From the NCBI GenBank assembly GCA_947561395.2, contig OX387182.1, positions 38,991,949 through 39,055,948 of the forward strand: a stretch of DNA of 64,000 nucleotides, written 5' to 3'. Every line of letters begins with the position of its first letter. The first letter of the stretch is position 1. The DNA comes from Buxus sempervirens. Lineage: Eukaryota > Streptophyta > Magnoliopsida > Buxales > Buxaceae. The position numbers and the translations under genes are program-made. This document shows, piece by piece, positions 23,308-60,336 of the stretch. A model generated the notes under the pieces. It had not been told where the DNA came from. It worked only from the letters and a program-made list of their open reading frames with translations, and searched no databases.

Positions 23308-23659
23308 CCCGCGTATCTCGGGATGTTGTTACCTCCGTGTATCTCGGGGATGCCCCGTGTAGCTCGGGATGATATGATTAAGATTGAGATGGGTTGTGCT
23401 TACTGGATTTCTCTGTTGGTTTTGGTTTTAGAGTCTAGTGGGCATAGCTCGATATGGATCCATGTTAGGAGCTAGATCGTGGAAAGGATTGTTCTTTGCT
23501 AGTCGTAACACTTTGGTTCACGCACGCGTTTCCATCGTGTATCTCGATGAGGCCTTCACTGTATCTGGTTGGCTGCAGCTATGACAGGATAGTACATGCC
23601 AACTCATTACTGTATCTGGATGGGTTCTCCCGCAATAAGTCGATGACCGTGTAGCTCGG
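23308..23659 (+). repeat. Constant-loop, variable-stem hairpin array in LTR D
   Basis: Loop word TGTATCT (or TGTAGCT, CGTATCT) with different perfect stems: CCCG/CGGG (23308-23322), CCTCCG/CGGGG with one bulge (23333-23349), CCCG/CGGG (23354-23368), CATCG/CGATG (23533-23549) and CCG/CGG (23647-23659). Weaker copies lie between 23567 and 23625. Confidence 0.75.
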
Positions 23660-24443
23660 CTTCGCTCATAAGCCGGGAGGTGGCATAATGAGGAAGGTCT
23701 TACACTAGTTAAAGGCAGTCTTATTCATGAGTCATGCGGTGACTTATCAACTGCGGATTTGATGTTACATATATGTTTGTTAAATTCGATTATTCTTGTA
23801 TCTCATACTGATCGATGGATTACTGTTGATTTACTCGGATTATTCGGAACTGCTGTGTTATCGCTACTCTTACATGGTTTACAACTGTATTATATTTTAG
23901 AACTGATAAACTGTATTTGAGCATGCATCTGCTGCTTACTGGGATATTCGTATCTCATTACGTTTGGTTTTGTTTTGTTTTCAGTTTCTGGTAAGGACGG
24001 CACCAACGGGTATATGCTTGGTTCATGTGAGTTAGCCTTGGTTATAGTATTTTATTGTTGAGCTTGGGTTATAGTGCACTCTGATTATCCAGTTATTGTT
24101 TTATTCATGTTTGTCCTTCACTCTGATATTGCTATCCTGGGTTATATATTAACCTTCGGAGATAAGTTACGGTTTCTTTATGTAACTTGGATCCGGGGTG
24201 TTACAATATAGATAATGAAAATCAGTACGTATTTAAATCTGAATATGTTTGTCAACAAAATTCCAATTGATTGGAAAAGAAACAATATCATTATATCCAC
24301 ATCTCAAGAACACCAATTTCTATAACAATCCAATAATATGTCTTAAACTAAATAAACAAAACCCCACATTGGTCAATGTCATGTAATTATTTGATTGGTT
24401 AATCAACACGCCAGAGCGACCCCCACACCTCCATGTACACAGT

Positions 24444-24564
24444 TCCGACCTACTCAGGGTTTCGGATACTCTGAAATGACGGCTTACTCAGGGTTTCGTC
24501 ATCCAATGCCGGCCTGCTCAGGGTTTCGATATTGACAACCAGGCCTACTCAGGGTTTCTGACTG
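24444..24564 (-). repeat. Constant-loop hairpin array in LTR E
   Basis: Four units with the loop word CCTACTCAGGGTTT (plus-strand reading) and stems TCCG/CGGA (24444-24466), ATGACG/CGTCAT (24476-24502), a weakened ATGCCG/CGATAT and a weakened CCAG/CTGA. The same four positions are present in LTRs B and K. Confidence 0.72.
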
Positions 24565-26106
24565 CTCTACACCGGTCGGGGCAACACTCTATGTCCATGC
24601 CATTACTCCAATTAAACAAAGGCATCACATTACTAAGCTTAGACTCTGGATCCAGGACAAGCTAAACCAAAACAGTAAACCATCATAAAATCACAACTCT
24701 GACATCACAATAAAACAATACGTTCCACATCATGTATAACTCAACCAATTCACTACATGTCCCTCTGGACCATAACAGTACCTCATGTACTTTCGGTATT
24801 TCCTCAAAATCCATAACACATGCTCATTTGTAATAAACTCATTTACTCACACCAATAGAAACCGTTACAATACATTTCAAAAACTTGCAATCAAGTAAAA
24901 TTAGATTAAGTAAATTCTCATTCAAGTACAGTATGTAACAAAAGGAAATTAAATCAAGAACTCATAATGTTAGGTACAATAAGATCATCTACTGGTAGTC
25001 CTTAAAATTTAACCTTGGATGCTCCTAAGAATTTCCAGAATTTCCACTTAATATTTTCAGGGTATTTGAACAGGTAATAGTATCTCTAAAATTTTAAACA
25101 AACCATTAGCTAATTGCTTGAACCCTCAATTCATCAAAATCTAGCTTGATTGGTCAATTCTCCCATTTCGGCAAAGGATAGAGGCTTGCGCTGACCTCTA
25201 GCGCTAGACACGAGGTCGGCGGTAGGTCGTTTGAAAAAAAAACAAGTTGCGCTTACTTAAAAGAGGGTAGGCGCGAGCTAGGCGCACGATACGCGCGAGA
25301 TTAGCGTGAGATTGGCGGAAAGGAAACTGGTTGGCGTGAGCTAGGCGCACGATACGCGCGAGCTCGGTAGTAAGAGGAATTGGTCTTGCGCCGACTCAAC
25401 CCAGTTGGCGCTAGGTAGGTGCCAAACCCGGCGGATGCTACCTTTGTTTTTCAACTCTCTGTTATTTCCAGATCTACACAACTGACCAAAATTTTTCTGT
25501 CTGTAACCACTTCCCTAGCCTCCTACTATCCCCAGGAGATGTTTAAACCACTTTTGAAATTATTCTAAACACCTTTTTATTTATCTCTAACAATTCTAAT
25601 ATTTATCTCTAACAGTTCTAAAAAAGAACTCACGCTCAGACTATCTTCTTCCAGAAAACATATGCATCAAGATCAAACTCACGAATCAATACAAAACCCA
25701 GTTTTAAAACGATGCTACTCACCGGTATTGAGGATCTTCTTCTAGCTTCCAACCCTTTTGATGGACTCCTCTAGAGATCCAAGCTTTTCGGCCAACGCCC
25801 TAGGTACCAGGCAGCGACCTTTCCCCAACCTCCGAAAATTTTTATCTTAGCAATCTATTTATAGACCTCACAAGGTTTAACTTAATTTATCCCCGGCATT
25901 AACTTAACCCTCGGGATTCCATATCTACCCCTCATTAAAGTTGAGGTTACCCGAATTATTTGTTTGCTAAGTTCCTATTCACTACAAATTTTTAAGTTCG
26001 CACTTAATTACTTAATAGCATTCTACTTATTTTCTTTGCCAACCAATGACCACAAATCTCCAGCTTTAAATAAATTTTTGATTAAACCTACTAATTAATC
26101 CATGTG

Positions 26107-30439: not shown

Positions 30440-30876
30440 ATCCAGATACAGGAATAAAGGTTGGCATGTACAACCAAACTTCCCACCGAGATACACGGAT
30501 AAAGGAATATAATTGCTGCAAGTTCTAACTTCCCACCGAGATACACAGATAAAGGAAAAGGATTGCCGAGATACACAGACTAAATTGCATAAATGGACCA
30601 CGGGGTTAACTAAACAAAGAACAACCAACTCCACTATCTAGCTAAACTATGGATCCATAACAAGTTATGCCCGCTAGACACAAGGCAATCAAATACTCAA
30701 ACATGTTATTTTACATACCAAAAACACCATCAATAATCCACAAGTCAACTCCAAGATACATGGGGAAATCCAAATCTCAAACCCAAGCTACATGAGTGAG
30801 AAATTCACCACTCCGAGGTACACGGAGGAAAATAATAACAGTAATAACCATCAAATCAACTCCAAAATACATGGAG
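30440..30876 (-). repeat. Constant-loop, variable-stem hairpin array in LTR G
   Basis: Plus-strand loop word AGATACA (also AGGTACA, AAATACA) with stems ATCC/GGAT (30440-30454), CCG/CGG (30486-30498), CCA/TGG (30751-30763), CTCCG/CGGAG (30811-30827) and CTCCA/TGGAG (30860-30876). The last two show a paired C:G to T:A change. The 3' half is a longer duplication: about 30745-30830 resembles 30853-30940. Confidence 0.75.
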
Positions 30877-31753
30877 GAAATCCAAGTCTCAAACCCAAGC
30901 TACATGAGTGAGAAATTTACCACTCCAAGGTACATGAAGGAAAATAATAATAATTCTGCCTTAACAATCATGAAAACATCTTTAGGTAGATTAAATACAA
31001 GTGTATGAACCAATAAAATCAACCCAAGGTGAAAGGAAAAGGATTTGAAACAATAAACTCAAATAAAAGTCATTTTAGTAGAACGTACCCAAATTCTTTA
31101 TAAAAGTCCAAATAAATCATCGGCCAGTGCAAACACTCTTAAAACACCATAATCTTATTGGTACATGAGTTGAAATTCAATAAAAACAATTCTATAATCA
31201 AAAACTAGGTCGAAAGGTTAAATTCCAAAAATCTGTCAGTTAGCGCTTGAGCGCTAACTAGCAGCATGTCAGGCGCTCATAGAAGTCTGGGTTTTACGAA
31301 ATTTTGTGAATTTTATATTTATCTTTCAGTGAAAACCTCTTCAAAATACCTTCCAAAACTTTAAAATCTATTTGGGTATTCAAAGATATCATAAGCAAAT
31401 ACAAAATAAACTTTAATGAATTATTATAGAATTTCAATCATGTAAAGGTCAAATCTGTTACCTATGAACAAGTAATGTTCTAAATATCATAACTCGATCA
31501 TTTCCTAACCAAATTACCTAAAATTTAACTCATTGGATTCCTAACTCATAGTACTAAAATAACTTATAGCAGATTTCCAAAATTCTATGTGGTTACTTAA
31601 TTATAGCTTTTTAAAATCAACTTTTAATAAAAATCTATGCATACCAGTAAGTAATAAAAATTAATTAAAAATTACTAAAGGGTAGAATATTATTTAAATT
31701 ATATTTTTATGTGAAACTAGACACAAAACCCTACAACTTTCATGAAGATCACG

Positions 31754-36114: not shown

Positions 36115-36258
36115 GCATAGTCCACTTTTCTTGCTGAAGTTCAAAATTGAGTAAACCAATGGGGATTTTGATGCTAGAAGGTCTCCGATCACTTAGCGAA
36201 GTACTTGTTTAGGACATTAGAGACAAAATTACTTATGAGAACATTGAAGATAGATTCG
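36115..36258 (+). repeat. 144-bp direct repeat, left copy, flanking LTR L
   Basis: Identical by eye to 40512-40655. It is part of LTR K and is duplicated exactly at the two junctions of the L segment. Confidence 0.9.
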
Positions 36259-36859: not shown

Positions 36860-37160
36860 CCGAGCTACACGGTCATCGACTTATTGCGGGAGAACCCATA
36901 CCGATACAGAATGAGTTGGCATGTACTATCCTAACATAGCCACAGCCAACCAGATACAGAGAAGGCCTCATCGAGGTACACGATGGAACGCGTACGTGAA
37001 CAAAGTGTTACGACTAGCAAAGAACGATCTTTTCCACTATCTAGCTCCTAACATGGATCCATATCGAGCTATGCCCACTAGACTCTAAACAAAACCAATA
37101 GTGAAATTCAGTAAGCACAACCCATCTCAATCTCAATCATATCATCCCGAGCTACACGGG
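36860..37160 (-). repeat. Constant-loop, variable-stem hairpin array in LTR L
   Basis: Plus-strand loop AGCTACA or AGGTACA with stems CCG/CGG (36860-36872), CATCG/CGATG (36969-36985) and CCCG/CGGG (37146-37160), plus a bulged CCTCG/CGGAGG unit near 37165-37182. Matches LTR D in inverse orientation. Confidence 0.7.
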
Positions 37161-40511: not shown

Positions 40512-40655
40512 GCATAGTCCACTTTTCTTGCTGAAGTTCAAAATTGAGTAAACCAATGGGGATTTTGATGCTAGAAGGTCTCCGATCACTTAGCGAAGTA
40601 CTTGTTTAGGACATTAGAGACAAAATTACTTATGAGAACATTGAAGATAGATTCG
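40512..40655 (+). repeat. 144-bp direct repeat, right copy, flanking LTR L
   Basis: Starts immediately after the terminal TG/CA of LTR L and ends where the LTR K sequence resumes with GGAATTTTCC. Confidence 0.9.
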
Positions 40656-41057
40656 GGAATTTTCCTAAGAGCTTCCAAGGTAGGCGTAGGGCAACCTGTT
40701 AGGTGATGTTTGGGATACCCAACACCGGGGCTTTTATTTTAGTTCTTTTGGATTACACTGTAATTGATTGAGAGTTATTAAACCCTGTTTTCGTGATGGA
40801 AAGTTTTGAATTATGTTGCAAAGATTATTTACTTGTTTTCTTGTGAGTAATTATTGTTCTGGTTGGAACACTTGTGTAAGATGAAGTTCTAGCTGGAACA
40901 ACTTGTGATGTGTGTACTGAATGCAGAGTTTTATCGGTTATTTATCGGCTTTGGGTTTAGCTTCCTATGGATCCTTGTTAAGCTTAGTAATGTGATGGTA
41001 TGTGTTTATTGGTGTAATTGCATGGCCTTGTGTGTTGCCACGACCAGTGTAGAGCAG

Positions 41058-41175
41058 CCAGATACCCTGAGTAGGCCTGGTTGTCAGTGCCGATACCCGG
41101 AGTAGGCCGGCATTGGATGACGATACCCTGAGTAGGCCGTCATTTCAGAGTGTCCGATACCCTGAGTAGGCCGGA
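41058..41175 (+). repeat. Constant-loop, variable-stem hairpin array in LTR K
   Basis: Four units share the 15-base centre ATACCCTGAGTAGGC (one unit has ATACCCGGAGTAGGC) but have different stems: CCAG/CTGG (41058-41080), TGCCG/CGGCA (41088-41112), ATGACG/CGTCAT (41117-41143) and TCCG/CGGA (41153-41175). The centre can itself pair CCT with AGG around GAGT. Confidence 0.82.
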
Positions 41176-41356
41176 ACTATGTACATGGAGGTGTGGAGTG
41201 TCTACTTGGCATGTAGATTAATCAATGTAACCATATGCATGACATTGACCTTGTTTTGTATTGTTATTGGAAGTACGTTGGTTTAAATTGTTGATTATTT
41301 ATCGAAGCATGTCTTATAACTATGTTAACTATTTCTGCATGCATGTGTCACTCGCT

Positions 41357-41475
41357 GAGATACTCGTATCTCATCCCTCTTTGTGTTTCGTTTTTCAGAT
41401 CTTCGTGGTGAGGCGCCTACGGGGGTAGATCCGACTGACACATATAGGGAGGAGGATTATTACTACCATCCTTAG
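41357..41475 (+). other. Palindrome, acceptor-like CAG and short tyrosine-tailed frame in LTR K
   Basis: GAGATACTCGTATCTC (41357-41372), then TTTCGTTTTTCAG ending at 41398, then a frame ending at TAG 41473-41475 with the tail YREEDYYYHP. Confidence 0.62.
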
Positions 41476-42132
41476 TCTAGTAGGTTGCTTAGTCTTAACC
41501 TTTGTTAAATTGAATTTGCGGGAATTGTAGTAAGATAGTAAATTGGAACCATTGGATGTATTTGAAGATGCTATGTTTTGCCTAGATGAGAATTTTTAAT
41601 TGTGCACTCTGATGTGATATAAATTGCGCGTGATTATCCAGCGATCACTATTTTTGAGATCCTTACCTAACCCCTGGGAGACGTGTTATATCTTTAATGA
41701 AAAACACGGATCCAAGGCGTTACAAAGTCGCTGCTACCTAATGGGGTGTAGGCAAACACCTGGATTCCTAAAGTTTGTCCATTTTTTGTCTGTGGCTTGA
41801 AATTCTGTCTAAGCTCTCGGTTATGGTCCGGGGAAGTCCGTAAACACCCTGATCAGCCCCGTCGGGTGACGGGTCCCATGGGTCTTCCTGGTTTAGAGTC
41901 AACTTTTGTTTTATCTCACCCAATCCTAATTCGATGTGCACTCTTTATGTTAAGTCTGTGTGGGGACCACTTAAATGGTGTGGGTCCCCTTTACTTGATT
42001 TTATCTTCTTTCTTTAAGTGGTCTCTGTCTGATTGGGCGGCCCCATTGGAAGGCCCGCGGAATCCCTGATGGGCTAAGCATAGCCCACATGTCCCTCTAG
42101 TGGGTTTTAAATTAACCGTAGAAAGCCCTTTA

Positions 42133-43678: not shown

Positions 43679-43917
43679 AGCGAGTAGCACATGCATGCAG
43701 AAATAGTTGACCACAATTTAAAACTATGCATCGACAAACACCCAATACGGATTAACAACCAACATCAATTCCCAAGTTCAAATCAAAACTTGTTCTAATC
43801 AAACAAATCACATCTCAGTTAAGTACGGCAACACATCGATTGGTCAATGTCATGACTATCGTTTAGTTGATAAATTAAACATGCCAAGTAGACACTCCAC
43901 ATCTCCATGTACACAGT

Positions 43918-44037
43918 TCCGGCCTACTCAAGGTTTCGGATACTCTGAAATGACGGCCTACTCAGGGTTTCGTCATCCAATGCAGGCCTACTCCCCGGGT
44001 TTCTGCATTGACAACCAGGCCTACTCAGGGTTTCTGG
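43918..44037 (-). repeat. Constant-loop, variable-stem hairpin array in LTR B
   Basis: Plus-strand units with stems TCCG/CGGA (43918-43940), ATGACG/CGTCAT (43950-43976), ATGCAG/CTGCAT (43980-44008) and CCAG/CTGG (44015-44037). The centre is CCTACTCAGGGTTT-like. The third stem differs from LTR K by a paired C:G to A:T change. Confidence 0.82.
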
Positions 44038-45800
44038 CTGCTCTACACCGGTCGTGGCAACACACAAGGCCATGCAATTCCAACAACCAACAATAACATC
44101 ACATTACTAAGCTTAAACATCTGGATCCAGGACAAGCTAGACCAAAACAGTAAAACATCGTATAATCACAATTCCAATATCAAGGTAAAACCATTCATTC
44201 CACATCATGTAAAACCCATCACATTTCATCACCTGTCCCTCTGGACCAAGCAGTATCTCAAGTACTTTCAGCATTTTCTCATTTTCGTAACACATGCCAT
44301 TCGGAAACAAAACTCAATTCATTCATACCAAGGAAATCCTTACAATACATTTAAAGTTTCCAAACAAGTGAAACCAGAATAGAATAACTCCTCAATCAAA
44401 ACAGTGTGTAAAACAGAGTGAATGTAACTGGTAACTCTTAGTGGTTTGGCATCCGGCACAACACTCATAAATAACCTAAATTCAACTTGGAAGCTCTTAA
44501 GAAGTTAACTAAATTTTCCTCTAATATTTTCATAGGCAAAGTAGATCCTAAGGTTCCCAAACAAGTGAATAGTGAAGTGGTTTAACCCTTAAGACACCCA
44601 ATTACTCTTGGCTAAATCAAATTTCCATTTCAGTAAGTAAAATAGGGTAGGCGCTCACTTCCTGAAGTGGGCGCCGGGTGAACGTCGTCGGCGGTAAGAA
44701 AAATAGGGTAAAAGGTTGCTTCCGCTCACTCGACGCTAAGTGAGCGCGAGATAGGCGCGAGCTGAGCGCCAGGTTCGCACGAGCTAAGTGGCAGGTTTTC
44801 GAGTGCACGCGAGCTGAGCGCCGGGTTCGCGCGAGCTCGGCGGTAAGTCAAATTTAACAGGGCATCTAGCTAAGAGGTGAGCGCCAGTGGGCGCCAGGTT
44901 CGCGGATACCCCCTGCGATTTCCAGTTCTCTGTAAATTCGAGATCTATATCTCTGGCTGGTTTGTTTCGGTCTGTTATTGCTCCAATACCCTCCTAGTAC
45001 TCCCAGAAGACTTCCTAACCATATTTGGATTTAATCTAAACACTTTTAATTTCAAGATAAAATTCAATCTCCGACTCTGTTTCATGTCATTCCAGAAAAC
45101 CAGAAGAAAACCAGAAAACTCATACATCACTTAAAATACAAACCATGCATAAGAATAAGCCCACGAAAACATCAAACACAAAACCCAGTTGTAAATCAGT
45201 GCTACTCACATGAATGCGCTTATTCCAGAATATAGCAAAACCTCGGCCGATCACCACTCCGGCCACGCACGCGAGGACAGAATCTACCCAAACAATACGT
45301 CTCGAGCAGAGAGAAATAACCCACTCAACTTCAACTTCAAGATCCGTCTCTTACCCCTTGCGATCCTAGTTCTTCACGAGCAGAACCCTAATCGCCACTC
45401 CAGCCGGTTCTCCTGAATATCAGACTAACGAACAATGTTTCCGTAAGTATGATACGCGTATTCCCTTAAACCCAAAACCCTACTTTCCCTTTTTGTACAT
45501 TTACCTTGCGATACATACGCCGCTCGATTAATCTTTTAACTCCTTGATCCTATGCGTGCTCGCCCACTGGAAACGCTACATGTTCCGCATCCACTTACGT
45601 TAATAAGCACACAACTATACTTTCCTAATAATAATGATAATAATAAAATTTTCCAGAAAAATTGGCTATATAACGCCTGTACATGCGAGTATGGGCTAAG
45701 CCCCCAAACCACAAAAATCACCTGATAAACACAGTTTATATATCAAAATAAATAACTAAATAAAGAAATAACTCACCAAAAATCAGGGTCTTACAAAGTT

Positions 45801-46509: not shown

Positions 46510-47064
46510 TGTAGACACCTGATTTTTGCACCCCCAAAAAATGCCAAAAATGAAATTTTAATTAAAAATTCAAACTCTGAAGGGACCAAAATTTGACCTT
46601 TTGATCCAAAGAAAATTGGCCATCAAACTTCCTTTCATTGAAAAGAACATTTCGACACGGTTCTAACGCAACTGAGTTTGCTAGAATCGGAGTCCGGATG
46701 AGAAAGTTATGAACCGGTCAAACTTTTGGGGGAGCGAAAGTTGACTTTTTGCTCGACCCCAATTCAACTGCCCAATTTGATCCCAGTGGATAGTATGTTC
46801 CGAGCTGATTCCAACGACACCAAATTTGCTAAAATCGGACATTAGACGGAGAAGTTATGGGCAGTTGGAGTTTCAAAGAAAGCTGCCCATGTGGCAAAAC
46901 AGCAGTAAAAAGCAGAATAGATGAATTAAATAAATAAAAATAATCTTTTAATATTATTTTAATAAGAGAATCCCGTTTTATAATAAAATAATCAAAAAAT
47001 CGGATAAAAATCTTTAAATAAACCAAATTGAATAAAGGTTTGAAATCCAAACATTTTAAAAACG

Positions 47065-47275
47065 TGCCGGACCGTATTTGAAGTACGGGCAAGGCATGCC
47101 CGTACTTCAACTACGGGCAAGCTTCTAGAAAAGGACGCGTGGCGGGACACGCGTCCCGTACGGAAGAATCTGCGATAATTGCAAATATTCGTTTTTCGCC
47201 CGTACTGTAAGTACGGGCAAGGCATGCCCGTACTTGAAGTACGGGCAAGGCATGCCCGTAGTTCAAATACGGGCA
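47065..47275 (+). repeat. CCCGTA..TACGGG palindromes upstream of the TATA box
   Basis: Five palindromes of about 20 bases (about 47069-47088, 47097-47116, 47199-47219, 47225-47245, 47253-47273) with constant CCCGTA/TACGGG arms and variable centres, separated by AAGGCAT in several cases. The copy in the 3' LTR is at 56879-57090. Confidence 0.8.
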
Positions 47276-47288
47276 CGAAAATTTTGCC

Positions 47289-47296
47289 TATAAATA
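47289..47296 (+). promoter_or_regulatory. TATA box of the gag-only element's 5' LTR
   Basis: TATAAATA followed by GAGAGGCC, 16 bases after the last upstream palindrome. Repeated at 57101-57108 in the 3' LTR. Confidence 0.7.
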
Positions 47297-48109
47297 GAGA
47301 GGCCACCCCCCTCATTTGGGCAAGCCTTCTCCCCTGGCCTACCCCCTCTCCCTCTTGGAGCTTTCCACGGCCAAACCCTGCCCAACCACCACCATCCCAA
47401 AACCTAAACTCTTTTTATCCCTAAATTACCCCTATACTCCTAAACTACCCCAAAACCATGCCCAAATCTCCTTCAACTTGGTCTTGAACCCATCCATCTT
47501 AACCAAACTCTTCCCAATTCTTCCCCGCAAAATAAGGAGGACGCGGAAGCGCTGCCCAAACTTCTGGAGGATCACCAAATCAGTAAAAGTAAGCAATTGC
47601 ATTGTAAGCATGTTCTTTTCCTTAAATTAATTCCACTTTTCTTTCTTTTTCACTAATCTTTTTTATATGTCACTAACCTATCTTGGAGTATTGTGTGAGA
47701 TGACAGTTTTTAATCTAGGAAAGATCATCATCATGGAAAAGAAATGAAATAGTGACAAAAAGTCACCAAAAAAAAGGGTCTTAAAAGGAGTATTTCATTC
47801 CATTTAATTACTATTCTAGAAAGGAGAATGTGAGGTTCTTTTGAAGTCCTTGGCATCCCCTGTAAATCATCCATTTCCCCTCTTAAAAAGTGGCTATGAA
47901 CAACTAGCAAAGGGGTTGATCTTTCAGCAAAGAACCCAAGGAGAAAGGAGAAGAAAAATAAGACCTTTTTAGCCAATTGAAGTCAACAAAGGAATTCGGA
48001 GGACCTAGAAGTACCACTGAAGCTGCCGGAACAACCAGGAGACTCACCGGAGTGATCCCAAGCAGAATCGGCAGCAAAAGTGCAGAATAAGCTGCGCCCG
48101 TATACTCAG

Positions 48110-48205
48110 AGCGGTCCAGGCGTGCCCGTAATTAATATACGGTCTGGCCTGAACCGTATTAAAATTACGGTTCAGCCCGGACCGTAAATGAAATACGGTC
48201 AAGAT
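48110..48205 (+). repeat. CCGTA..TACGG palindromes, downstream set
   Basis: Three clear palindromes (GCCCGTAATTAATATACGGT near 48124, AACCGTATTAAAATTACGGT near 48146, GACCGTAAATGAAATACGGT near 48180) and a partial one near 48108, about 0.85 kb after the TATA box. The 3' LTR copy is at 57911-58015. Confidence 0.75.
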
Positions 48206-49013
48206 TGTAAACAACTTAAAAAATTAATTTTTCGGACCCGGTTGGACCCAATCCGACCCATTTAAATTTGACCCGACCAATTGGGCTTCTTGGATAATTC
48301 CAAGCCCATTCTTGAGACTGTGGGCCTAAGTGGGCCCACCAAGGCTTCGTGGGCCCTCCAATGGGGCCCACATCTCGACTAGCCTAACCAAGGCCCATTT
48401 TCACAAATGGGCTAAGGCCACTTGATTAAATTACCCATGGGCCAAATCCTAGCCCATTGGGCCCTAAAAGACATCAACCCACTAAATTGTGTAAATATAA
48501 TTGAATCTTTAAACCAAATGACCAAAATCCAATAAGGGTTACCCAATAACCCGGACTGGGCCTTGGGCTTGACTTAAGCCCAACTCGGAATCCATTGGGC
48601 CTTCCAATGGGGCCCATACCAGACCCACTTCACTAACTTAATAAAAAGATAAAATCAAATAAAAAGGGGACCAACACCACCAACGGTCCCCACCAGACCA
48701 AATAAGTGTGCATGCTGGCTTAGTAATTGGGTGAAAACTAAGTTGACTCAGACCAAGGAGACCCACGGGACCTGTCAATCGACGGGGCGGGCTAGGGTGT
48801 CTTCGGGCTTCCCTAGACGTAACCGAGAACTTGCTCAGAACTCTAATAAGCCGCAGACCAGATTAATTAGGCCCGGATAGGTGCCCTTTGTGTCTGCCTG
48901 CACCTCTCAGGCAGTGGCGACTCCAAACTCCAAACCAGTCCCGAGGCGAGCATCACATTCTTCATGCACCTCGTCGTGCGACCCGAAACCAAGAAAAGGG
49001 GGTGCGCAAAGCT

Positions 49014-49032
49014 TGGCGACTCCACTGGGGAC
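49014..49032 (+). promoter_or_regulatory. Primer-binding site of the gag-only element
   Basis: TGGCGACTCCACTGGGGAC begins three bases after the 5' LTR. It starts with the universal TGG (complement of tRNA CCA). I cannot name the tRNA with confidence; Ogre relatives are reported to use an arginine tRNA. Confidence 0.8.
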
Positions 49033-50870
49033 CTCTCAGCCCAATTGGACCTTGGTTAGGAAATGAGTCAACATAGGGGGATATGAGTAGATTTAGGAAG
49101 TACTTTTTGTCCAACCTTAGTGAGGTATGGAACTTTTGCAATTACGTGATATTGGGGGATCCTGTCACAAGGACGAGATAATTGCCTAAGGAAAGTGGAA
49201 TTTAAGCGGTTCCCTGTGACCCTCCACTTACCTGGGGATCAACCCAGACATCGTATTGCATGTTGTTCTGTATTCTCACTATAAAAGTGACATTAAGGAA
49301 CCCTTTATCAGCTCATTATCCGAGAATCACCCGAATAGACACAGCACTTTGCCCCACTGCACACATGAGCACTTCACTACACCGTGAATGATCTTTTAAC
49401 TGCATGGGGTGACATGCACGAGGGGGTCTGCATGAATGGTCCGCTTTGAATAACTTGATGAAATGCTGCTCTTGTCCACCAAAACCTAGATCTTTCTAGC
49501 AGCCACCCTTCTCAAACGATGAACTTACTTTTGGGATGGTATTAGCTCTACGCTCCCGTGGCTTGCCGGGGAAAGCAGGGTAAACCCATCTCCCCAGGTT
49601 TCTGGATTCCTTAGCGCCACTGGCTTCATGCTGTGGTATGCGAGGGTCTAGTACTTGGCTCAGACCCTTGTAGACGAATGTCTTGGGCTGGGTATCCTTT
49701 CCCCACCTATTGTTTCTGATAAACCGCAGCTTTGTAAATGCAGCATGGATTTGGATGTAGATATGAATATTGGAAAATAAAATCAAGTTAAATCCAAGAG
49801 TCCATCAGGGGCAGTCCCCTGCTCTTTTGCATCGAATTGAGTGAACCCTAGATCGTGGGTTGCCTTAGCCCTAACTTAGGAAACCAACCAAATTTTGATC
49901 AGGGGAACCACCCCAGATCCATGCATTGAGTCCTGTGAACCATGGTCCTTGACCCATCGAGCCCATTGGAAGCACTCCAAGTCCAGATCGGTCTTTTGAG
50001 CAGATGAAAGCCGGCCAGATCAGAAAATCAGACAGAAATAGGCCAGATCAGAACAGGGGCATAAAACCCTAGATCCAGGATTCCAGCCTACCTGCCTTGA
50101 AGAAAATTTGTATCCTTCTTTTGGGTTCCCAAAAGCCCTTAAGATGAAATTTTTCAGATTTTGAATATCATGTAATTTTAGCCCTTTTCGGCAAATTATT
50201 AATCCTTTTTGGTCTGACACCTGAAAGAGAAGATGGAAGAAAGAACAGATGAAAGAAGACTGATCTGGACTCAAATGTGCTTCTATACACAAGTATGTCT
50301 AGAAGTCGTGCCTTGAGGGGCACCAACCTTTTTAGGACTATGCACACACTTTTTAATTATGCAGAATGGTAATATTAATTTTGTGTACGCATCTTCATGC
50401 ATCAAGTGCACACACTTCAAGATCATCTGCATAAGCATGCCTGATTAACTCATTTCAAAAAAAAAAAAAAAAAAAAACCAAACAAAAAAAAAAAAAAAAG
50501 AAAAAAAGAGAGAAAATTTTCAAAATTTTGAATTGCCTCTAAGTGTACATTAAATTTGCCTTAAGTCGAAGAATGGTTTCAATCCCCTGTGCTTAAACCA
50601 AGTTTCAATTGGCTGTAAAACAGCCCAAAATAAGAAAAAAAAAGAGTCAAGGAAAAAGTCTGATTTTTGCCGATGGCCATCGGACCAAAAAAAAAAAAAA
50701 AATTTAGCCAATTGGGAAATCAACTCTTGCAGTTTCCCAGATCCTGATGGAAATCAATACTTTGTGTTCCTACCATTCCAAACCCCTTATCATTCCTTGG
50801 AATTCTCCAAACTGATCCATTTCCAAAATCAAAATCAGCTCCTGTGGTTTCCAAACCCAGAGGTTATTTC
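49033..50870 (+). other. Leader of the gag-only element
   Basis: Non-coding 1.8 kb between the PBS and the tandem array. It contains A-rich low-complexity tracts at 50457-50513, 50634-50643 and 50688-50702. No domain was found. A long leader before gag is usual in Tat elements, and packaging signals are expected here but cannot be pinpointed. Confidence 0.6.
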
Positions 50871-51880
50871 CTTACCTCCGAAGTGGCGGTCAACCTCCGA
50901 AGTGGGGGTTGAAGGAAATCATTCTCAGAAATCTTCTTTCCTTACCTCCGAAGTGGCGGTCAACCTCCGAAGTGGCGGTTGAGGGAAATCATTCTCAGAA
51001 ATCTTCTTTCCTTACCTCCGAAGTGGCGGTCAACCTCCGAAGTGGCGGTTGAGGGAAATCATTCTCAGAAATCCTCTTTCCTTACCTCCGAAGTGGCGGT
51101 CAACCTCCGAAGTGGCGGTTGAAGGAAATCATTTTCAGAAATCTTCTTTCCTTACCTCCGAAGTGGCGGTCAACCTCCGAAGTGGCGGTTGAGGGAAATC
51201 ATTCTCAGAAATCCTCTTTCCTTACCTCCGAAGTGGCGGTCAACCTCCAAAGTGGCGGTTGAGGGAAATCATTCTCAGTAATCCTCTTTCCTTACCTCCG
51301 AAGTGGTGGTCAACCTCCGAAGTGGCGGTTGAGGGAAATCATTCTCAGTAATCCTCTTTCCTTACCTCCGAAGTGGCGGTCAACCTCCGAAGTGGCGGTT
51401 GAGGGAAATCATTTTCAGAAATCTTCTTTCCTTACCTCCGAAGTGGCGGTCAACCTCCGAAGTGGCGGTTGAGGGAAATCATTCTCAGAAATCCTCTTTC
51501 CTTACCTCCGAAGTGGCGGTCAACCTCCAAAGTGGCGGTTGAGGGAAATCATTCTCAGTAATCCTCTTTCCTTACCTCCGAAGTGGTGGTCAACCTCCGA
51601 AGTGGCGGTTGAGGGAAATCATTCTCAGTAATCCTCTTTCCTTACCTCCGAAGTGGCGGTCAACCTCCGAAGTGGCGGTTGAGGGAAATCATTCTCAGTA
51701 ATCCTCTTTCCTTACCTCCGAAGTGACGGTCAACCTCCGAAGTGGCGGTTGAGGGAAATCATTCTCAGAAATCTTCTTTCCTTACCTCCGAAGTGGCGGT
51801 CAACCTCCGAAGTGGCGGTTGAAGGAAATAATTTCCAAAAATCTTCTTTCCTTACCTCCGAAGTGGCGGTGAAAAGAAGA
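50871..51880 (+). repeat. 70-bp tandem array in the gag leader
   Basis: Fourteen full 70-bp units (starting at 50871 and every 70 bases to 51781) plus a partial unit at 51851. Each unit contains the 17-base word ACCTCCGAAGTGGCGGT twice, separated by CA, and ends with a GAGGGAAATCATTCTCAG-like spacer. The block 51151-51410 is repeated without change at 51431-51690, a 280-base (four-unit) shift, so the array grew by copying several units at a time. It ends about 190 bases before the gag frame opens. Confidence 0.95.
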
Positions 51881-56321: not shown

Positions 56322-58824
56322 TGTAGACACCTGATTTTTGCACCCCCAAAAAATGCCAAAAATGAAATTTTAATTAAAAAGTCAAACCCTGAAGGGACCA
56401 AAATTTGACCTTTTGATCCAAAGAAAATTGGCCATCAAACTTCCTTTCATTGAAAAGAACATTTCGACACGGTTCTAACGCAACTGAGTTTGCTAGAATC
56501 GGAGTCCAGATGAGAAAGTTATGAACCGGTCAAACTTTTGGGGGAGCGAAAGTTGACTTTTTGCTCGACCCCAATTCAACTGCCCAATTTGATCCCAGTG
56601 GATAGTATGTTCCGAGCTGATTCCAACGACACCAAATTTGCTAAAATCGGACATCAGACGGAGAAGTTATGGGCAGTTGGAGTTTCAAAGAAAGCTGCCC
56701 ATGTGGCAAAACAGCAGTAAAAAGCAGAATAGATGAATTAAATAAATAAAAATAATCTTTTAATATTATTTTAATAAGAGAATCCCGTTTTATAATAAAA
56801 TAATCAAAAAATCGGATAAAAATCTTTAAATAAACCAAATTGAATAAAGGTTTGAAATCCAAACATTTTAAAAACGTGCCGGACCGTATTTGAAGTACGA
56901 GCAAGGCATGCCCGTACTTCAACTACGGGCAAGCTTCTAGAAAAGGACGTGTGGCGGGACACGCGTCCCGTACGGAAGAATCTGCGATAATTGCAAATAT
57001 TCGTTTTTCGCCCGTACTTGAAGTACGGGCAAGGCATGCCCGTACTTGAAGTACGGGCAAGGCATGCCCGTAGTTCAAATACGGGCACGAAAATTTTGCC
57101 TATAAATAGAGAGGCCACCCCCCCTCATTTGGGCAAGCCTTCTCCCCTGGCCTACCCCCTCTCCCTCTTGGAGCTTTCCACGGCCAAACCCTGCCCAACC
57201 ACCACCATCCCAAAACCTAAACTCTTTTTATCCCTAAATTACCCCTATACTCCTAAACTACCCCAAAACCATGCCCAAATCTCCTTCAACTTGGTCTTGA
57301 ACCCATCCATCTTAACCAAACTCTTCCCAATTCTTCCCCGCAAAATAAGGAGGACGCGGAAGCGCTGCCCAAACTTCTGGAGGATCACCAAATCAGTAAA
57401 AGTAAGCAATTGCATTGTAAGCATGTTCTTTTCCTTAAATTAATTCCACTTTTCTTTCTTTTTCACTAATCTTTTTTATATGTCACTAACCTATCTTGGA
57501 GTATTGTGTGAGATGACAGTTTTTAATCTAGGAAAGATCATCATCATGGAAAAGAAATGAAATAGTGACAAAAAGTCACCAAAAAAAAAGGGTCTTAAAA
57601 GGAGTATTTCATTCCATTTAATTACTATTCTAGAAAGGAGAATGTGAGGTTCTTTTGAAGTCCTTGGCATCCCCTGTAAATCATCCATTTCCCCTCTTAA
57701 AAAGTGGCTATGAACAACTAGCAAAGGGGTTGATCTTTCAGCAAAGAACCCAAGGAGAAAGGAGAAGAAAAATAAGACCTTTTTAGCCAATTGAAGTCAA
57801 CAAAGGAATTCGGAGGACCTAGAAGTACCACTGAAGCTGCCGGAACAACCAGGAGACTCACCGGAGTGATCCCAAGCAGAATCGGCAGCAAAAGTGCAGA
57901 ATAAGCTGCGCCCGTATACTCAGAGCGGTCCAGGCGTGCCCGTAATTAATATACGGTCTGGCCTGAACCGTATTAAAATTACGGTTCAGCCCGGACCGTA
58001 AATGAAATACGGTCAAGATTGTAAACAACTTAAAAAATTAATTTTTCGGACCCGGTTGGACCCAATCCGACCCATTTAAATTTGACCCGACCAATTGGGC
58101 TTCTTGGATAATTCCAAGCCCATTCTTGAGACTGTGGGCCTAAGTGGGCCCACCAAGGCTTCGTGGGCCCTCCAATGGGGCCCACATCTCGACTAGCCTA
58201 ACCAAGGCCCATTTTCACAAATGGGCTAAGGCCACTTGATTAAATTACCCATGGGCCAAATCCTAGCCCATTGGGCCCTAAAAGACATCAACCCACTAAA
58301 TTGTGTAAATATAATTGAATCTTTAAACCAAATGACCAAAATCCAATAAGGGTTACCCAATAACCCGGACTGGGCCTTGGGCTTGACTTAAGCCCAACTC
58401 GGAATCCATTGGGCCTTCCAATGGGGCCCATACCAGACCCACTTCACTAACTTAATAAAAAGATAAAATCAAATAAAAAGGGGACCAACACCACCAACGG
58501 TCCCCACCAGACCAAATAAGTGTGCATGCTGGCTTAGTAATTGGGTGAAAACTAAGTTGACTCAGACCAAGGAGACCCACGGGACCTGTCAATCGACGGG
58601 GCGGGCTAGGGTGTCTTCGGGCTTCCCTAGACGTAACCGAGAACTTGCTCAGAACTCTAATAAGCCGCAGACCAGATTAATTAGGCCCGGATAGGTGCCC
58701 TTTGTGTCTGCCTGCACCTCTCAGGCAGTGGCGACTCCAAACTCCAAACCAGTCCCGAGGCGAGCATCACATTCTTCATGCACCTCGTCGTGCGACCCGA
58801 AACCAAGAAAAGGGGGTGCGCACA
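56322..58824 (+). mobile_element. 3' LTR of the gag-only Tat element
   Basis: Nearly identical to 46510-49010. Begins right after the polypurine tract and ends ..GGTGCGCACA before the GTTTG target duplication. Its TATA box is at 57101-57108. Confidence 0.92.
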
Positions 58825-58829
58825 GTTTG

Positions 58830-59079: not shown

Positions 59080-60336
59080 ATGACTGCAACTCGATCTTCT
59101 AACCAAGGTTATTTGCAGAAAGATCCAGAAATCGAAAGAAGTTTGCACAGGCTACGGAGGGCAGCACAAAGACATTCAGAAGAGAACGATCCATCTCTTT
59201 TTGCTGGTGAATCTGATTCCGAAGAAGAAGGAACCATGGCTGGAAACAGAACTTTGAAAGAGCTTGCTGCTCCTGATTTGAATCAGCAACCTTTATGCAT
59301 AACTTTTCCTACTTTAGATGTGGCAACTAATTTTGAATTAAAGTCTGGACTGATACATCTTTTGCCTTCTTTTCATGGATTTGCAGGTGAAGAACCTCAC
59401 AAACATCTGAAGGAATTTCACGTGGTGTGTATAAGCATGAAACCCACTGGAGTGACTGAAGAGCAGATTAAATTAAGAGCCTTCCCATTCTCTTTGAAGG
59501 ATTCAGCTAAAGATTGGCTTTATTACTTACCTTCTGGGACTGTTACTACATGGAATGAAATGAAAAGATTATTTCTGGAAAAATATTTCCCAGCTTCAAG
59601 AGCAGCAAATATAAGAAAAGAAATTTGTGGTGTAAGGCAAAACAATGGAGAATCTCTGTATGAGTATTGGGAAAGATTCAAGAAGTTGTGTGCAAGCTGT
59701 CCCCATCATCAAATCAGTGAACAGCTACTGATCCAGTACTTTTATGAAGGACTTTTACCCACTGAAAGAAACATAATTGATGCTGCCAGTGGAGGAGCTT
59801 TGGTAGATAAAACTCCAGAAGCTGCTAGAAATCTGATTGCAAATATGGCAGCCAACTCTCAGCAATTTGGTAGTAGACTTGATTCTTCATCTAAACAAGG
59901 CAAAGAGGTAAATATTTCTTCCCTTGAACAGCAAATTGCAAGTCTAACTTCTCTTGTGCGTAATATGGCTGTAGGTAACATGCAAACAGCAAAGGTTTGT
60001 GGAATTTGCTCTGTAGAAGGACATGCAACAGACATATGTCCAACTCTTAGAGAGGAATATGATGAACAAGCAAACTGGGCAAATGGTTTTCCTGGACAAC
60101 CTCAAAGGAAATATGATCCTTATTCAGATACATATAACCCAGGGTGGAGGGATCACCCAAATCTTAGATATGGGAATCCACAAGCAACTCAGCCAATACC
60201 TCCAAACAGATCAAATTTCCAGCAATATAAGCAACCATACCCCCCAAGACAACAACAGGGCCACACTTCTAATTCTGGTATGTCTTTAGAAGATATTGTT
60301 AAATCTCTTGCCACTAACAGTGTGCAATTTCAATAG
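59080..60336 (+). CDS. Athila gag
   Basis: A frame of 418 residues from ATG 59080, 32 bases after the PBS. The N-terminus is charged (HRLRRAAQRHSEENDPSLF), then GNRTLKELAAPDLNQQPLCI, which is very typical of Athila gag. The Retrotrans_gag domain (about residues 110-240) includes LLPSFHGFAGEEPHKHLKEF, LRAFPFSLKDSAKDWLYYLP, WNEMKRLFLEKYFPASRAAN and ESLYEYWERFKKLCASCPHH. Then LIQYFYEGLLPTERNIIDAA, and further on a CGICSVEGHATDICP knuckle. The C-terminal part is P/N/Q-rich. It would form the particle shell. The element as a whole is broken. Confidence 0.88.
   Translation: MTATRSSNQGYLQKDPEIERSLHRLRRAAQRHSEENDPSLFAGESDSEEEGTMAGNRTLKELAAPDLNQQPLCITFPTLDVATNFELKSGLIHLLPSFHGFAGEEPHKHLKEFHVVCISMKPTGVTEEQIKLRAFPFSLKDSAKDWLYYLPSGTVTTWNEMKRLFLEKYFPASRAANIRKEICGVRQNNGESLYEYWERFKKLCASCPHHQISEQLLIQYFYEGLLPTERNIIDAASGGALVDKTPEAARNLIANMAANSQQFGSRLDSSSKQGKEVNISSLEQQIASLTSLVRNMAVGNMQTAKVCGICSVEGHATDICPTLREEYDEQANWANGFPGQPQRKYDPYSDTYNPGWRDHPNLRYGNPQATQPIPPNRSNFQQYKQPYPPRQQQGHTSNSGMSLEDIVKSLATNSVQFQ

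Follow-up and report, generated by a model that had tools for sequence, protein, structure and literature searches.

Stem-loops in the R/U5 leaders of retroviruses have roles in dimer formation and packaging, and the dispersed packaging signals of RNA viruses are likewise stem-loops, which share a motif and are bound by capsid protein. In plants, retrozymes carry a hammerhead within their LTRs; to our knowledge, little is known about how plant LTR retrotransposons select their own RNA. Published work describes stems with both arms conserved in long retroviral R regions (PMC3601003), many packaging signals of one kind in each RNA of RNA viruses (PMC6281560), the hammerhead as a folded RNA motif in plant retrotransposons (PMC4918200), and stem-loops derived from transposable elements in enod40 RNA (PMC10578108).

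Here we describe an array of hairpins in the LTRs of a plant retrotransposon family, designated F1, which resembles the retroviral R/U5 leaders in placing what may be cis-acting stem-loops in the terminal repeat. No such LTR hairpin arrays are described among the open-access titles and abstract starts listed as matches, and the novelty of the arrays is accordingly provisional.

The hairpin array and the element that carries it

The window, a stretch of 64,000 nucleotides of Buxus sempervirens DNA, holds an array of four hairpins in LTR K, at 41054-41178 on the + strand, where an earlier note on this DNA had placed it. The four inverted repeats given there (CCAG/CTGG, TGCCG/CGGCA, ATGACG/CGTCAT and TCCG/CGGA) are present as written, and the stems extend beyond them, to GCAGCCAG/CTGGTTGT, CAGTGCCG/CGGCATTG, GATGACG/CGTCATT and AGT-g-TCCG/CGGA-ACT. 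That the four units share one centre holds exactly for three, which have the 15 bases ATACCCTGAGTAGGC, but not for unit 2, whose centre ATACCCGGAGTAGGC is one base off. Hairpin 1 (41054..41084, +) has eight pairs, two of them G-U; hairpin 2 (41085..41115, +) also has eight, one of them G-U; and hairpin 3 (41116..41144, +) has seven, again with one G-U. These three abut directly, with zero spacer bases between them. Hairpin 4 (41149..41178, +), which like hairpins 1 and 3 has the loop ATACCCTGAGTAGGC, is the least well supported of the four. At its 3' end LTR K reads GGATCCaaGGCGTTACA (41708..41724, +), the type of LTR end that is accompanied by target duplications in two copies elsewhere in the genome, L075 and L077.

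The same hairpin array is found in LTRs B (43902..44043) and E (24428..24567), both on the - strand. A paired stem change had been reported in B, and it is real, a C-G pair replaced by A-T in CAATGCAG/CTGCATTG, but it belongs to hairpin 2 in the sense direction and not to the third stem. The counterparts of this hairpin elsewhere are CAGTGCCG or CAATGCCG with CGGCATTG, and the loop in B, at 17 nt, is two bases longer. In E, hairpin 2 is CAATATCG/CGGCATTG, with an A-C mismatch inside. The window contains 11 matches to the core at up to three mismatches, where shuffled sequence averages 1.0. In the host genome (676.5 Mb in 247 contigs), ACCCTGAGTAGGCC with at most one mismatch occurs 10061 + 9893 times, or about 20,000, against 33 + 35 (68) for the reversed pattern; the carrier of the array is a very common LTR retrotransposon family in this genome.

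Two F1 copies inspected for their termini, L075 and L077, begin with TGTAAGACCC and end, about 2.37 kb further on, with GGATCCGGGGCGTTACA, from which L075 departs by one base; they have TG...CA termini and 5-bp target duplications (GCATG in L075, GGAGG in L077), and the array begins about 1.63 kb into an LTR of this type. The LTR end of another copy, L069, runs on into TGGTATCAGAGCC, and in a second, L126, the LTR end is followed, by coordinates, by TGGTATCAGAGC; both sequences we take to be the tRNA-iMet primer site. Since the primer site follows the LTR end of L069, the array lies on the sense strand, which for K is the + strand of the window. Judged from such sequence features, the F1 carrier is an LTR retrotransposon primed by tRNA-iMet and probably of Ty3 type. 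The other F1 LTR ends inspected have no primer site after them (solo or 3' LTRs). The interior of L069 holds a truncated gag-like frame with zero Pfam matches, and at L189, where the LTR shares this end type but belongs to a different family, reverse transcriptase and then integrase follow the LTR.

Junctions of an LTR end with a primer site number 192 + 218 = 410 in the genome (control, 0), a figure that is not a count of F1, since three junction regions (L188, L190 and L191) are without the F1 core in the roughly 800 bases before the primer site; these three, despite primer sites behind their LTR ends, were rejected as members of F1. A TIR transposon, suggested by inverted-looking LTR ends and by 3' flanks that vary from copy to copy, was ruled out by the 5-bp duplications and the primer site, and L028 and L068 were set aside as full elements, their interior frames resembling unrelated nested repeats. 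No TATA box is conserved among copies in the 200-345 bases upstream of the array: the candidate GGTATAAATAACTG is exact only in L035 (= L077) and L052, and TATAAATA, present in L015 (= L075), L032 and L087, reads GGTATGAATGAATTG or GGTGTGAGTAACTG in sister copies.

Some LTRs carry two arrays, roughly 307-351 bases apart (L011, L026, L056, L064, L067, L079-L083, L094, L097, L102 and L126), and hairpin 1 of the second array then has one extra pair. TGTTC-TGGTTG-GAACA and its kin stand upstream of the array, in one to several tandem copies, at 40855-40905 (+) and in K-type LTR copies. At 41356-41398 (+), a T-rich tract and then CAG, the latter at 41396-41398, come after a hairpin GAGATA-NNNN-TATCTC, an arrangement that resembles a 3' splice site preceded by a hairpin; hairpins of this type also occur in B, in the LTRs at 21 kb, 23 kb and 36 kb, and in L190, that is, in several LTR families, with GGGATA in two and a loop that is often TTCG. 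A GGATCC palindrome, with flanks that vary in matched ways, lies upstream of the array in F1 (E and L077) and is found in copies L128-L147 of a second family, F2, described below; its forms are CTGGATCCAG in E (one base off in L077) and TATGGATCCATG and GTGTGGATCCACAT in F2, and it could conceivably form a self-complementary hairpin or serve as a dimer site.

Elsewhere in the window, two 144-base stretches (40512-40655 and 36115-36258) are 100% identical in surroundings that are not, possibly through recent conversion or duplication. A 2.5-kb direct repeat (46510-49015 and 56322-58829; 99.5% identical) is probably a young LTR pair, and between its two copies, at 50867-51870, a 70-base unit is repeated about 14 times. 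The Rfam family snoR71, a plant C/D snoRNA, matches at 59608-59714 (-) with an E value of 3.6e-6, antisense inside a gag open frame.

Pairing between the stem arms in F1

Sampling of F1 was non-random, taking the first 100 matches of the core patterns, mostly on contig C1, to which 20 of 83 loop-variant matches on C1-C10 were added (one of these, L181, is not an array). L001-L008 were left out for overlap with later loci, and identical arrays were counted once. Arms were swapped among 136 arrays, in which hairpins 1, 2 and 3 were usable in 136, 134 and 120, respectively.

The earlier note had argued that both arms of each stem change together, with independently varying arms as the outcome that would speak against it. 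Such independent variation is absent for hairpins 1 and 2. In the upper stem of hairpin 1, the canonical share is 0.830 for own arms and 0.622 for swapped arms (22 lineage types; 0 of 10,000 shuffles), and in hairpin 2 it is 0.910 against 0.863 (25 lineage types; 0 of 10,000), or 1 of 10,000 when all 53 distinct types are swapped. For hairpin 3 the arm swap by lineage types is not significant (6934 of 10,000); a paired alternative, GATGACA/TGTCATT, is present in 14 of 120 copies. In an earlier arm swap with 117 arrays, again by lineage types, hairpins 1, 2 and 3 gave 0, 36 and 686 of 5000. Extraction of the arms by a loose regular expression produced spurious matches for hairpins 1 and 3 (1002 of 5000 for hairpin 1, 45 of 5000 for hairpin 2 and 0 of 5000 for hairpin 3) and was replaced.

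A set of 34 arrays, hand-picked from the 136 to span lineages, has 33 doubly changed cells that are still paired, against 15.6 ± 3.2 after shuffling (0 of 500), and a covariation of 0.198 against 0.149 (0 of 500). When partners are slid along the alignment, doubly changed paired cells number 0-10, far below the observed 33, and all five shuffle measures stand above chance, being reached by 0, 1, 0, 7 and 0 of 500 shuffles. RNAalifold recovers hairpins 1-3 from this set unaided, though covariation contributes little to the score (-1.01 of -18.36), and does not recover hairpin 4, for which covariation support is weak.

Of 104 arrays, 94 entered the analysis of changes along branches, five having been dropped for length and five for gaps or insertions, with five further sites lacking an anchor. 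Among these 94, counting copies with both letters present, canonical pairing exceeds 90% at 29 of the 31 stem pairs. In 12 of the 94, hairpin 1 is longer by one pair, formed by an A in one arm and a T inserted opposite it in the other. Double changes on the same branch keep pairing in 15 of 23 cases, against 5.7 for permuted partners of the same base (2 of 2000). A second sampling used 101 arrays, with 29 listed as dropped, and its looser anchors lost much of the longer-arm sub-lineage; it gave 20 of 28 against 11.3, reached by 319 of 5000.

When events were simulated under an R-scape-like null for the 94 arrays, mostly close to one another, the result was not significant (G 257 against 330 ± 85); doubly changed canonical cells numbered 50 against 74, and 1 of 30 pairs reached p <0.01. 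In the same simulation, the canonical share of 0.965 lay above all 400 simulated values (mean 0.798). This null spreads events by branch length, which makes it a poor yardstick in both directions, and we attribute its G-test result to the mostly private decay of dead copies, a process outside the null model. The covariation tests on F1 came out divided, with an excess for hairpins 1 and 2, for the 34-array set and in the first same-branch count, but no significance for the arm swap of hairpin 3, the R-scape-like simulation or the second same-branch count.

The loop, said to be held while the stems change, is indeed similar within arrays, yet it is altered in divergent sub-lineages of F1. In the sub-lineage with the loop TATCCTTGGATAGG, in copies that include L099 and L175, hairpin 1 is CCCG/CGGG, hairpin 2 CAGTGTCG/CGACACTG and hairpin 3 GATGACA/TGTCATT, and copies of this type thus show matched changes in three hairpins at once. 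The covariation picture changed once divergent sub-lineages were added to the sample.

A second LTR family with a different loop

Two further regions of the window, 23.2-24.2 kb (+) and 36.5-37.3 kb (-), contain LTRs that are without the F1 array and carry hairpins with the loop TGTA-N-CT. They represent F2, another LTR family, in which a different hairpin series follows the same building principle as in F1. Hairpin A of this series reads CATCG[TGTATCT]CGATG at 23533..23549 (+) and CATCG[TGTACCT]CGATG at 36969..36985 (-), with the loop in brackets. A third LTR-like copy, at 30.4-30.95 kb, contains five TGTA-N-YT hairpins (30781..30939, -) with the arms CTTCA/TGGAG, ACTCA/TGGGT (twice), CTCCA/TGGAG and CTCCG/CGGAG. 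Across the genome the F2 marker has 386 + 388 = 774 matches, against 0 for the control, and two of the markers are placed by their coordinates 571 and 576 bases upstream of a primer-site junction.

Hairpin A is fully Watson-Crick in 36 of 42 copies, in four forms: CATCG/CGATG (18 copies), CACTG/CAGTG (13), CACCG/CGGTG (3) and CACCA/TGGTG (2). Among the other six, three have one G-U, two have one A-C, and one has a mismatch together with a G-U. Across 24 chosen F2 copies, double-changed cells number 24 against 7.5 (0 of 500), and there is no excess in the number of pairs that changed doubly (4, with 2.7 after shuffling; 70 of 500) or in pair types (474 of 500). Paired changes on the same branch number four, a value reached by 1 of 2000 permutations. 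For TGTA-N-YT loops in 43 sequences, at least four pairs form in 21.7% of 106 distinct arm pairs, compared with 8.7% when arms are swapped; the same count for four control loops gave 0 of 38, 0 of 8, 1 of 8 and 0 of 15.

Competing explanations and described systems

The folding stability of the arrays lies in the usual range (K, z -0.02; B, -1.05; E, -0.77), and in K the antisense strand gives the more stable fold (-50.5, z -1.47, vs -42.3 for the sense strand). Minimum-energy folds of the full stretch contain hairpins 1-3 in K, with another fold replacing hairpin 4, all four hairpins in B, and hairpins 3 and 4 in E, with another fold over 1 and 2. With folding energies of this kind, the argument depends on covariation. 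Selected RNA pairing in the array is likely. Rfam covariance models gave 0 matches at E up to 1 between 40900 and 41750, and a hammerhead-like reading of CTGAGTA, which we take to resemble hammerhead core letters, was set aside for lack of an Rfam match.

Selection could act instead on inverted repeats in DNA, such as cruciforms or palindromic protein sites, with RNA irrelevant. The arms are inverted repeats in DNA as well, these LTRs repeatedly contain the GGATCC palindrome and inverted motifs of the LTR ends, and tandem repeats in U3 can regulate transcription, as indicated for tobacco Tnt1 (PMC3601003). DNA would, however, treat G-T and A-C mismatches alike, whereas G-U is preferred on the sense strand: single changes away from Watson-Crick pairs in F1 give G-U over A-C at 17:5 on internal branches (p 0.017) and 85:60, a slight excess, on terminal ones (p 0.046), with 21:7 and 94:72 in the second sampling, and F2 hairpins A and D give 10:1, with 43 G-U cells against 2 A-C cells. 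The G-U preference modestly favours RNA over extruded DNA, and we regard selection at the DNA level as rather unlikely. In unpaired columns, C-to-T changes are not in excess per base (57 for 1711 C, compared with 109 G-to-A events for 2624 G).

Matched changes might also arise by mutation alone, with no selection, if template switching during replication or reverse transcription perfected the inverted repeats, a form of repair known in principle for quasi-palindromes. Template switching would account for the double changes on single branches and for the matched extra pair of hairpin 1, but it should yield Watson-Crick pairs, whereas G-U pairs are common and persist stably (at the base of hairpin 1 and of hairpin 3 they are close to fixation, and F2 hairpin D has them too), and single changes preserve pairing more often on internal than on terminal branches (24:7 vs 103:78, p 0.046); we hold it to be quite unlikely. 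Less probable still is a plain tandem repeat with shared ancestry, in which arm variants are linked by descent and pairing is unconstrained. In its favour, the simulation that spreads events by branch length yields an equal association by descent alone, the second same-branch value was reached by 319 of 5000 permutations, and hairpin 3 was not significant. Descent, however, produces linkage and not the pairing of linked variants, and the lineage-type shuffles, the slid partners and F2 all show that pairing itself is kept; double transitions do give pairs by themselves, but the changes from C-G to A-T in hairpin 2 and from A-T to C-G in hairpin 1 are transversions.

The explanation we prefer, with a probability of about 0.55, is that three or four hairpins in the sense RNA of a Ty3-type LTR element, with their pairing kept, form a multivalent protein-binding site whose likeliest reader is Gag. 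The F1 sense transcript would fold into three or four short hairpins, the first three abutting. In the lineages that continued to transpose, the pairing and not the arm sequence would be kept, the arms drifting in matched steps, and each hairpin would offer a similar loop on a generic stem, thereby creating a multivalent protein-binding site. We infer the action at the RNA level, the protein reader and the step affected. A multivalent binding site fits best because two LTR families with different loops follow a common plan, and the difference in loop from one family to the other would make Gag the first candidate. The reader would most likely be the element's own Gag/nucleocapsid, in genomic RNA selection or dimer formation, and the next candidate would be an RNA-binding protein of the host with a role in export, splicing or translation. 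Possible, though doubtful, is a wider generalization, namely that a family-specific loop on coevolving stems is a general architecture of plant Ty3-type LTRs and serves as a recognition code by which an element's own Gag packages its own RNA.

Under the preferred explanation, selection of own RNA would become testable, since the element is compact and a single genome offers natural variants of it by the thousand, and F1 and F2, with their different loops, would provide a ready specificity test. Should pairing serve export, splicing or escape from silencing instead, the natural variants would still permit mapping.

Among the described systems, retrozymes differ from the F1 array in that the array has no Rfam ribozyme match. 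Tnt1-type U3 regions resemble it in their tandem short LTR repeats; the passage on these repeats describes them as regulating transcription and makes no mention of a need for paired flanks (PMC3601003). Viral packaging signals are dispersed over the genome, whereas the F1 hairpins are clustered in one LTR. Set beside the retroviral R/U5 leaders, the F1 array is distinguished by several near-identical tandem hairpins with changing stems, located in the LTRs of a plant.
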